DNA of 60,413 nt from Actinomycetes bacterium. Lineage in GTDB: Bacteria > Actinomycetota > Thermoleophilia > UBA2241. The notes beneath the pieces are model-generated. The model was not told where the DNA came from. It saw only the letters and a program-made list of their open reading frames with translations, and made no database searches. Made by a program: the position numbers and the translations under genes. Positions within the stretch are counted from its first letter, which is position 1, and each line of letters starts with the position of its first letter. Shown here piece after piece: positions 15,901 through 18,202 of the stretch. The DNA lies in assembly GCA_029547745.1 (NCBI GenBank), contig JAKPOQ010000023.1, positions 1 to 60,413 on the forward strand, read 5' to 3'.

Positions 15901-16269
15901 CTAGAAGGCCACGCCGCTGCGCTGCGGGTCCTCGACGAGCGCCTCGTACAGCACTTCGAACGGCCCGCTGGCAAGGATCGACTGCAGCGACGCGTAGACG
16001 CGCTGGACGGGCTCGGCCCGATAGAACTCGTCGTGGGCCTCGATGGAGTCCCACACGGTCTCGAAGATGAAGTGGACGTCGCCGAGAGCGGCCTCGCGGT
16101 CTTGGTCGCGCAAGGCGCTGGCCAGCGGCGACATGCCGAACGAGCGCAGGACGCGGTGCCCGCAGTGACCCGCAGCCGACGACACGAGCACAGCGAGATC
16201 CTGCAAGGCGTGTTCGGCACGATGTTCCGTGCCCTTGCGAACGCTGAACATCGTCTGGCCGATGATCAT
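15901..16269 (-). CDS. ABM-domain (putative quinol monooxygenase-like) protein
   Basis: A 122-residue protein of the dimeric alpha-beta barrel type: MIIGQTMFSVRKGTEHRAEHALQDL, then VHFIFETVWDSIEAHDEFYRAEPVQRVYASL, which matches the antibiotic-biosynthesis monooxygenase pattern of YgiN-like proteins. ATG 16269 is chosen because GAAGGGGAG precedes it and the fold starts at residue 2; the ORF-track start adds 103 unlikely residues. Exact substrate is unknown. It converges with the P-type ATPase gene. Confidence 0.65.
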   Translation of the reverse strand: MIIGQTMFSVRKGTEHRAEHALQDLAVLVSSAAGHCGHRVLRSFGMSPLASALRDQDREAALGDVHFIFETVWDSIEAHDEFYRAEPVQRVYASLQSILASGPFEVLYEALVEDPQRSGVAF

Positions 16270-16462: not shown

Positions 16463-16915
16463 TCAGCGAGCGACGTCGCGCAAGCCTGCGCTGAGCGCCG
16501 CTGGTCTGAACGCCTCGTCGCCCTCGGCCATCCAGACGACCTTGCCGGCACGGTCGACGATGACAGCGCGCGGCTCAAGGCTGCCGCCCGGCCCTACGGC
16601 ACCGTATCCCTTGGCTACCGCGCCCGCGTCCGGCAGCAACGGCACCGCCGCCTCCGGCGCTTCTTCCATCCACCGTGCCAGCTCGTCACGACCGCCGTCG
16701 CTGAGCACGAGGACCTGGCCGCGCAGACCCCAGAGCGCGTCGGCCGCCTTGCTCAGGGCATCGATGCGCCGGGGTGCGTCGGGGGTCGACGCGGGCATGA
16801 ACACCAGCACCGGGAACCAGTCGCCGCGGTACTGCCTGAGGCTGATCTCGCTGCCGTCGAGGGCGGTGAGGACGAAGGCCGGCGCTTCACGGCCGACACC
16901 GAACGCGTAGCCCAC
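16463..16915 (-). CDS. Peroxiredoxin-like protein lacking the peroxidatic Cys
   Basis: A 150-residue thioredoxin-fold protein of the AhpC/TSA type: GREAPAFVLTALDGSEISLRQYRGDWFPVLVF, then MPASTPDAPRR where active peroxiredoxins have P-x-x-x-T-P-x-C. The Cys position is Ala, and no other Cys occurs in the protein. The C-terminal AVIVDRAGKVVWMAEGD strand pair is intact. It is therefore unlikely to be a thiol peroxidase unless it works with a partner. Start GTG 16915 has GGAGG 7-8 nt upstream. It follows rubrerythrin on the same strand, beyond a hairpin. Confidence 0.75.
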   Translation of the reverse strand: MGYAFGVGREAPAFVLTALDGSEISLRQYRGDWFPVLVFMPASTPDAPRRIDALSKAADALWGLRGQVLVLSDGGRDELARWMEEAPEAAVPLLPDAGAVAKGYGAVGPGGSLEPRAVIVDRAGKVVWMAEGDEAFRPAALSAGLRDVAR

Positions 16916-16981
16916 CTGGAGGACCTCCTGGACGTGGCCGGACGGGGTCCGACTGCCTGATGACGGCAGTCTATCAAACGC

Positions 16982-17022
16982 CGGGGAGGGGGCGGCCACC
17001 GCCGGCGGCCGCCCCCTCCCCG
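16982..17022 (-). terminator. Hairpin after rubrerythrin
   Basis: A 16-bp stem (GGGGAGGGGGCGGCC core, exact complement) with a 9-nt loop, 34 nt after the rubrerythrin stop, followed on the minus strand by GGCGTTTGATAG. Position and strength fit a terminator or 3' stabiliser between rubrerythrin and the Prx-like gene. Confidence 0.65.
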
Positions 17023-17055
17023 TCCCAGCGTCGATCCGCTCGAACTCGAGTCGGC

Positions 17056-17550
17056 TCAGAACTCCCGGAAGTAGCCCCCCGCGGTGCCGCAGCGCGGGCA
17101 CTCGCGCGGGGCGTCGCCGATGACCGTATGACCGCACACCGGACACACCCACACAGCTGTCGCCTCGAGGTCTCTCTTGCCCTCGACCCCCTTCAGGGTG
17201 CGGTCGTATATCTCCTGATGGTCCTTCTCGGCCCTGAGGGCGTAGCGGATACTGGTCCGCGCCGACTCGTTGCCCTGCATCGCAGCCACGGCATCGTAGG
17301 CGGGGTACATCTCGTCGATCTCAAAAGTCTCCCCGCCCCACGCCGACTTGAGGTTCTCGGCCGTGGAGCCGATCATGCCGAGCACGCTCAGATGGTTGCG
17401 GGCATGCGTGCTCTCGGCGAAGGCGACCGCGCGGAAGAGGCGGGCGACGTTCGGGTACCCCTCGTTGTCGGCGACGTCGGCGAACGCCAAGTACTTCTGC
17501 GAGGCCTGGCTCTCGCCGGCCAGCGCCGCCTTGAGGTTCTCCGCCGTCAT
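17056..17550 (-). CDS. Rubrerythrin
   Basis: A 164-residue non-haem iron protein that reduces hydrogen peroxide in anaerobes and microaerophiles. The ferritin-like four-helix domain has the diiron ligands in LAGESQASQKY, AESTHARNH and RAEKDHQEIYD. The C-terminal rubredoxin-like domain has CPVCGHTV and CPRCG. I favour ATG 17550 (MTAENLKAALAGES), which matches the usual family N terminus; the upstream ATG 17601 (MEHPFLCS) has a stronger AAAGGAGG site and would add 17 residues. It suggests an organism that meets low oxygen or anoxia. Confidence 0.93.
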   Translation of the reverse strand: MTAENLKAALAGESQASQKYLAFADVADNEGYPNVARLFRAVAFAESTHARNHLSVLGMIGSTAENLKSAWGGETFEIDEMYPAYDAVAAMQGNESARTSIRYALRAEKDHQEIYDRTLKGVEGKRDLEATAVWVCPVCGHTVIGDAPRECPRCGTAGGYFREF

Positions 17551-17773
17551 CGCCCCTCTGTCGTCGGGCTCCGGCGGGCTGCAAAGGAACGGGTGCTCCA
17601 TGGCGCGGACGCCTCCTTTCGCGGGCGCCGACGACGCGGGTGCGTCGCGGCCGGCCCGCGTGTCTCCATGACGCATGCTCCAGACGCGCGGACTGCACCT
17701 ATCGTACCAACCCTCGCCACGGGGCCCGGGTCCCCAGACGCGGCCGCCGTGCACGGATCAGGCGGCGGCCGCG

Positions 17774-18202
17774 TCAGGCAGCGGCCGCGTCCCTGCTCAG
17801 CGCCGGGACCAGGCGATGCAGTACCGCGTGGATCTGCTGCTTGCTCGAATAGTCGAGGAGCGCGTAGTAGACGCCGGGGTAGGCCTCGCTGCGCGTGAAC
17901 TGACCGAGGTCCACGGTATGCCCGGCGGCGATCAGCTCCAGCGCCTGGTCGCGGTCGACGGCGAGCAGGGCCGCCGTCGCCGGCACCGCGGCGTCGCCGC
18001 AGAGTTCGGCGATGTCGGCCGGGTAGCTCCAGTGCGAGAGGACGACCGGTGTGCCGCCGACCTCGCTGCGTACGAGGCGCACGCCGGGCTCGACCTCGCC
18101 GCCGAACTCGAAGTGGCGACGCTCCTCGCCGCGGGCGATACGGACCGCGAGCGCCACGCGGTCGAGCTTCTCGTGGAACCTGGTCGGGACTTGACGTGCC
18201 AT
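17774..18202 (-). CDS. Conserved-looking hypothetical protein
   Basis: A 142-residue soluble protein I do not recognise. It has mixed alpha/beta character: VALAVRIARGEERRHFEFGGEV, then VVLSHWSYPADIAELCG, a helical middle, and GVYYALLDYSSKQQIHAVLHRLVP. No signal peptide, membrane helix or metal motif. Codon use matches its neighbours. It stands between DUF2207 and rubrerythrin on the same strand, with 165 nt upstream that hold nothing else I can identify. Confidence 0.6.
   Translation of the reverse strand: MARQVPTRFHEKLDRVALAVRIARGEERRHFEFGGEVEPGVRLVRSEVGGTPVVLSHWSYPADIAELCGDAAVPATAALLAVDRDQALELIAAGHTVDLGQFTRSEAYPGVYYALLDYSSKQQIHAVLHRLVPALSRDAAAA

Follow-up and report, generated by a model that had tools for sequence, protein, structure and literature searches.

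Peroxiredoxins carry an active-site motif, PxxxTxxC, that contains the peroxidatic Cys, and a catalytic Arg that activates the peroxide. Peroxiredoxin folds and pseudoenzymes are both already-known kinds. The described systems closest to the gene analyzed here are the Bcp/PrxQ and AhpE peroxiredoxins (PF00578; structures 3drn and 1xvw), the selenocysteine (Sec) peroxiredoxins PrxU and Sec-Bcp, the rubrerythrin peroxide-defense loci of anaerobes, and CnoX/YbbN, a chaperone that protects against oxidants and whose thioredoxin domain has SXXC in place of CXXC (PMC8129009). In the open-licence literature, we found no description of a pseudo-peroxiredoxin beside a rubrerythrin in loci of anaerobes, and searches there for peroxiredoxins that are inactive or lack Cys yielded no relevant paper.

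The window, that is, the whole stretch of 60,413 nucleotides analyzed here, comes from a 2.27-Mb draft genome (G000) of UBA2241, an order of uncultured Thermoleophilia in GTDB that is known from permafrost and from the hypolimnia of lakes (PMC7438021). The gene in question, denoted PRXL, and its neighbors are arranged as follows:

16463–16915, minus strand: PRXL, a peroxiredoxin-fold protein without Cys, 150 amino acids plus stop (open reading frame and profile match)
16924–16929, minus strand: ribosome-binding site of PRXL, AGGAGG, 8 bases 5' of the GTG
17056–17601, minus strand: rubrerythrin with a C-terminal rubredoxin-like domain, Rbr1 type (PF02915, E = 4e-26)
15901–16269, minus strand: antibiotic biosynthesis monooxygenase (ABM)-like protein, downstream of PRXL (PF03992, 23.2 bits; cutoff 23.1)
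17774–18202, minus strand: conserved 142-amino-acid protein that matches no Pfam family, upstream of the rubrerythrin (10 of 14 loci, including the window)

PRXL starts with a GTG codon at 16915, and a ribosome-binding site, varied in sequence, also precedes the GTG starts of its orthologs. The protein is a single domain of 150 amino acids that belongs to the AhpC/TSA superfamily by sequence (PF00578, E = 8e-17, 61.8 bits, cutoff 26) and also matches the Redoxin profile (29.7 bits, cutoff 26.6); no NCBIfam equivalog was reached at cutoff (19.9 versus 140 bits). Its translated sequence contains no Cys. A hidden Sec was ruled out because the frame lacks TGA, even though the same genomes use TGA in other peroxiredoxins, and a sequencing error behind the Cys loss was ruled out by 13 further orthologs with 46–76% identity. 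A plasmid search produced no match.

The sample consisted of 15 genomes from six genera that represented the family of the window and, equally, its whole order. An ortholog of PRXL is present in 14 of these genomes of UBA2241-type Thermoleophilia, in all six genera; the sole exception is G013 (84% complete), from which the rubrerythrin pair is missing as well. A profile built from the 14 sequences yielded no match at E ≤ 1e-18 outside the family among 299 genomes of the class and 397 genomes of the phylum, and the weaker matches examined were ordinary Prx, Bcp or TlpA-like proteins. The matches at E = 1e-18 or better being PRXL only, we found no Cys-containing protein that would connect PRXL with an active subfamily as an intermediate. 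Outside Actinomycetota, a single-sequence scan covered close relatives only, and distant members might exist there. Pairwise dN/dS among the orthologs, where estimable, is 0.06–0.24, which rules out a chance open reading frame.

We compared the active-site region of PRXL with that of 22 control paralogs from the same genomes that retain Cys or Sec, namely, a Sec-containing Bcp set and a PrxU/AhpC group. Two sites are of interest:

16775–16798, minus strand: decayed peroxidatic loop, residues 40–47, PASTPDAP replacing PxxxTxxC (mean conservation 0.43)
16571–16573, minus strand: codon of Pro115, which aligns with the catalytic Arg of active peroxiredoxins (alignment)

The active-site segment of PRXL reads FMPASTPDAPRRI, and the alignment places Ala46 or Pro47, depending on a one-residue gap, in the peroxidatic column. 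None of the 14 orthologs has Cys or Sec at this position, and the mean column conservation of the peroxidatic loop is 0.43, as opposed to 0.91 and 0.94 in the two sets of active paralogs. The catalytic Arg column is occupied by Pro in 13 of the 14 orthologs and by Arg in all 22 controls. Thus, PRXL lacks both the PxxxT(S)xxC motif with its peroxidatic Cys or Sec and the active-site Arg of a peroxiredoxin enzyme. The 14 orthologs share no Cys column, and three of them (G000, G002 and G005) have no Cys at all. Cys72, at the end of strand 66–72 on the active-site side, is present in seven orthologs, those from the six PRXL-bearing g6 genomes and g3 (G004, G007, G009, G010, G011, G012 and G014), and missing in the window, G001, G002, G003, G005, G006 and G008.

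The fold itself is retained. An AlphaFold model computed with the 14-row alignment has a pLDDT of 90.6 and a pTM of 0.88, and the best Foldseek matches of this model are Bcp1 of Sulfolobus (3drn, TM 0.81) and AhpE of Mycobacterium tuberculosis, which identifies the fold as that of a peroxiredoxin; further matches include M. tuberculosis BcpB and the thiol-disulfide oxidoreductase ResA. With the catalytic residues gone, the fold retained and purifying selection acting clade-wide, PRXL qualifies as a pseudoenzyme. The sequence-only reading had described a peroxidatic Cys replaced by Ala in an apparently intact fold, and had named orthologs with the Cys as the finding that would speak for a local error; the replacement is borne out by the alignment, with Ala or Pro in the column, the fold by the PF00578 match, the confident model and the likeness to Bcp and AhpE, and such orthologs turned out to be absent (0 of 14). 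Its further statement that no Cys remains applies to the PRXL of the window but, family-wide, to only the three orthologs listed above.

The distribution of conserved residues in PRXL is inverted with respect to the old active site. The following loops lie on the opposite side of the fold:

16817–16831, minus strand: loop YRGDW, residues 29–33, invariant (alignment)
16718–16735, minus strand: loop xWGxRG, residues 61–66, family-specific (alignment and controls)
16538–16555, minus strand: hairpin DRAGKV, residues 121–126, family-specific (alignment and controls)

Mean loop conservation in PRXL is 0.53 on the active-site side versus 0.93 on the opposite side, where the sides were assigned from the order and direction of the strands in the model and the general peroxiredoxin topology rather than from measured coordinates. 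Among 140 circular shifts of the mask, counting the original position, only one produced a difference of this size, and the bias withstood both a reduction to nine non-redundant rows and displacement of the boundaries by up to two residues; the corresponding values in the controls are flat (0.84/0.79 and 0.82/0.76). The family-specific invariants include R30, D32, W62, G63, R65, G66, K125, V127 and W128, with R122 nearly invariant, whereas G31, W33, D121 and G124 are also conserved in active peroxiredoxins and may be structural. The conserved residues may form a single patch. Structure prediction and a search for conserved surface residues had both been suggested as checks on the sequence-only reading; the former returned a peroxiredoxin-type thioredoxin fold and the latter the near-invariant loops 29–33, 62–66 and 121–125.

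The rubrerythrin noted earlier upstream of PRXL is indeed its immediate upstream neighbor and is encoded on the same strand, and the same-strand order rubrerythrin(s)–PRXL–ABM is found in all 14 loci, including the window; the contig of G012 starts within the second rubrerythrin, and a single open reading frame on the opposite strand separates the second rubrerythrin of G009 from PRXL. Most of the family genomes encode two tandem rubrerythrins, of which the window and G001 have the first only, and no remnant of the second was seen in the 140-base gap of the window (16916–17055). The second rubrerythrin is about 52–59% identical to that of the window (loci L035–L046). In many genomes, the synteny reaches further, to a TPM-like gene and a heavy-metal ATPase, and the rubrerythrin–PRXL–ABM core persists where the outer genes differ: the ATPase was not found near PRXL in G002 and G005, nor the TPM-like gene in G003 and G006. 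The regional synteny is broad, and adjacency by itself is therefore no proof of a link. In six stretches examined from other Thermoleophilia families, the rubrerythrins had no peroxiredoxin neighbor. The ABM-like protein, strongly conserved 3' of PRXL, weakly resembles sulfur oxygenase reductase (24.8 bits, cutoff 25), and the 142-amino-acid protein has an invariant C68 and a DA..PAT motif (model pLDDT 79.5).

Two putative transcription signals, detected by folding and ortholog comparison, lie between the rubrerythrin and PRXL:

16982–17022, minus strand: 19-bp GC hairpin, a possible terminator without a strong U-tract (region z −5.9)
16968–16973, minus strand: −10-like box TAGACT inside TTTGATAGACT, 58 nt 5' of the GTG

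Comparable, very stable GC hairpins with little or no U-tract occur in several orthologous intergenic regions, 5' of the TTTGATAGACT box. TAGACT is present in 10 of the 14 orthologs, and the other four have a close variant (TAAACT, TAGAAT or TACACT); the box is located 35–84 nt 5' of the PRXL start in all 14 loci. Any of these hexamers occurs in 0.36% of random 110-mers from the window, the set of hexamers having been picked after the sequences were seen. Scans of the locus for intrinsic terminators and sigma-70 promoters identified no classical site. The hairpin and the −10-like box ahead of the start suggest, at the sequence level, that PRXL is probably transcribed alone, from its own promoter.

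The PRXL of the window is, close to certainly, a conserved non-catalytic peroxiredoxin-fold protein. The family kept this gene under selection without the catalytic Cys, so it must have a different, probably binding, job, and since the functional (seleno-)peroxiredoxins encoded in these genomes show no inverted conservation, the data are best read as pointing to a binding surface on the side away from the dead site. We assign a probability of about 0.6 to PRXL being a lineage-specific pseudo-peroxiredoxin that works via this surface. Under such a scenario, a Bcp/AhpE-like AhpC/TSA gene would have lost the peroxidatic Cys, the rest of PxxxTxxC and the catalytic Arg prior to the diversification of the UBA2241-type family, whereby the fold was retained and selection shifted to the other end of the sheet. 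The putative protein- or ligand-binding surface would comprise Y29-R30-G31-D32-W33, W62-G63-x-R65-G66-Q67, D121-R122-x-G124-K125 and V127-W128, and PRXL might act stoichiometrically, as an adaptor or stabilizer, in an oxidative-stress locus shared with one or two rubrerythrins, presumably expressed from its own promoter; a rubrerythrin would be the first candidate for its binding target. A redox-independent function of the PRXL in the window, as proposed from the sequence alone, is well supported. The suggestion of a sensor fares poorly, PRXL having no thiol and no DNA-binding or other effector domain.

How specific the binding might be is a matter of lower probabilities. PRXL could be a dedicated partner that binds rubrerythrin or its rubredoxin-like domain and modulates assembly or electron supply, a tentative possibility that draws on the finding that, in every one of the 14 loci from six genera, PRXL follows a single or a tandem rubrerythrin on the same strand, even where the flanks differ, as well as on the joint absence of PRXL and the rubrerythrin pair from G013. 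However, the GC hairpin (in several loci) and the −10-like box (in all loci) that separate the two genes make subunit-like co-transcription doubtful, and the rubrerythrins examined in other Thermoleophilia families do without such a neighbor. Hence the partner subunit proposed by the sequence-only reading is favored by the invariant adjacency and disfavored by these intervening signals. The narrower version, in which PRXL is a non-enzymatic docking or assembly factor of rubrerythrin peroxide reduction that binds rubrerythrin by the face opposite the dead site, we consider rather unlikely.

By analogy with thioredoxin-fold proteins that lack an active CXXC, PRXL might instead be a holdase-type chaperone that shields proteins under oxidative stress, a chaperone being another proposal of the sequence-only reading; CnoX sets the precedent and the position in a peroxide-defense locus fits, but the holdase part of CnoX is a TPR domain, which is missing from PRXL, the conservation in PRXL is that of a specific charged and aromatic patch rather than a broad hydrophobic face, and we noticed no gene for a chaperone at this locus. 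We regard this explanation as improbable. The holdase and rubrerythrin-partner readings overlap the general binding reading, and the probabilities that we attach to the several readings do not sum to one. Cys72, on the active-site side in half of the orthologs, could be a relocated thiol by which PRXL still works as a redox enzyme in some members of the family, with secondary loss in the lineage of the window. This cysteine is missing in the other half, conservation in PRXL is lowest in the loops that surround the former pocket and the peroxide-activating Arg is almost always Pro. The chances of such an enzyme appear slim, but in genera g6 and g3, Cys72 may still allow some remaining thiol function. 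Finally, the loss of all catalytic residues could be taken for the mark of a decaying pseudogene or a chance open reading frame, to which we give next to no credence in the face of 14 intact orthologs, the dN/dS values, and the conserved start, ribosome-binding site and promoter-like box.

With Bcp/PrxQ and AhpE, PRXL shares the fold, the length of about 150 amino acids, the best structural matches and the N-terminal consensus GxxAPxFxL..DG..xLxxYRG; unlike these enzymes, it lacks the peroxidatic Cys, PxxxTxxC and the catalytic Arg, and its conservation is on the opposite side. The Sec peroxiredoxins of the same genomes have the same fold and hosts but retain Sec or Cys at the peroxidatic position and near-invariant loops. 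G000 encodes such proteins at the following sites:

G000:C91:4372-4770 and G000:C21:10202-10567, minus strand: Sec peroxiredoxins (loci L052/L063 and L075)

In these PrxU-type and Bcp-type proteins, common to several relatives, an in-frame TGA falls exactly at the peroxidatic position (FTFV-U-PTE and TGG-U-T), and G000 also encodes SelB (G000:C50, 327 bits) and tRNA-Sec (G000:C74, 66.6 bits); the peroxide defense of G000 is, as predicted from these genes, selenocysteine based. CnoX/YbbN resembles PRXL by functional analogy only: both are thioredoxin-fold proteins without CXXC that are tied to oxidative stress, but CnoX combines a TPR domain with a functional surface Cys (PMC8129009), whereas PRXL consists of one Cys-free domain of the peroxiredoxin type and does not share this domain composition. 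The rubrerythrin loci of anaerobes are like the PRXL locus in having a rubrerythrin with a rubredoxin-like domain as the neighboring peroxidase. Peroxiredoxins are usually annotated on the basis of fold alone, and PRXL and its relatives would be called peroxidases despite lacking the necessary residues. As a pseudo-peroxiredoxin that spans its clade and has a sharply delimited conserved surface, PRXL offers a testable case of a redox enzyme turned binding protein, in a lineage whose functional peroxiredoxins contain selenocysteine; were it to dock on rubrerythrin, it would represent a kind of pseudo-peroxiredoxin not yet described.
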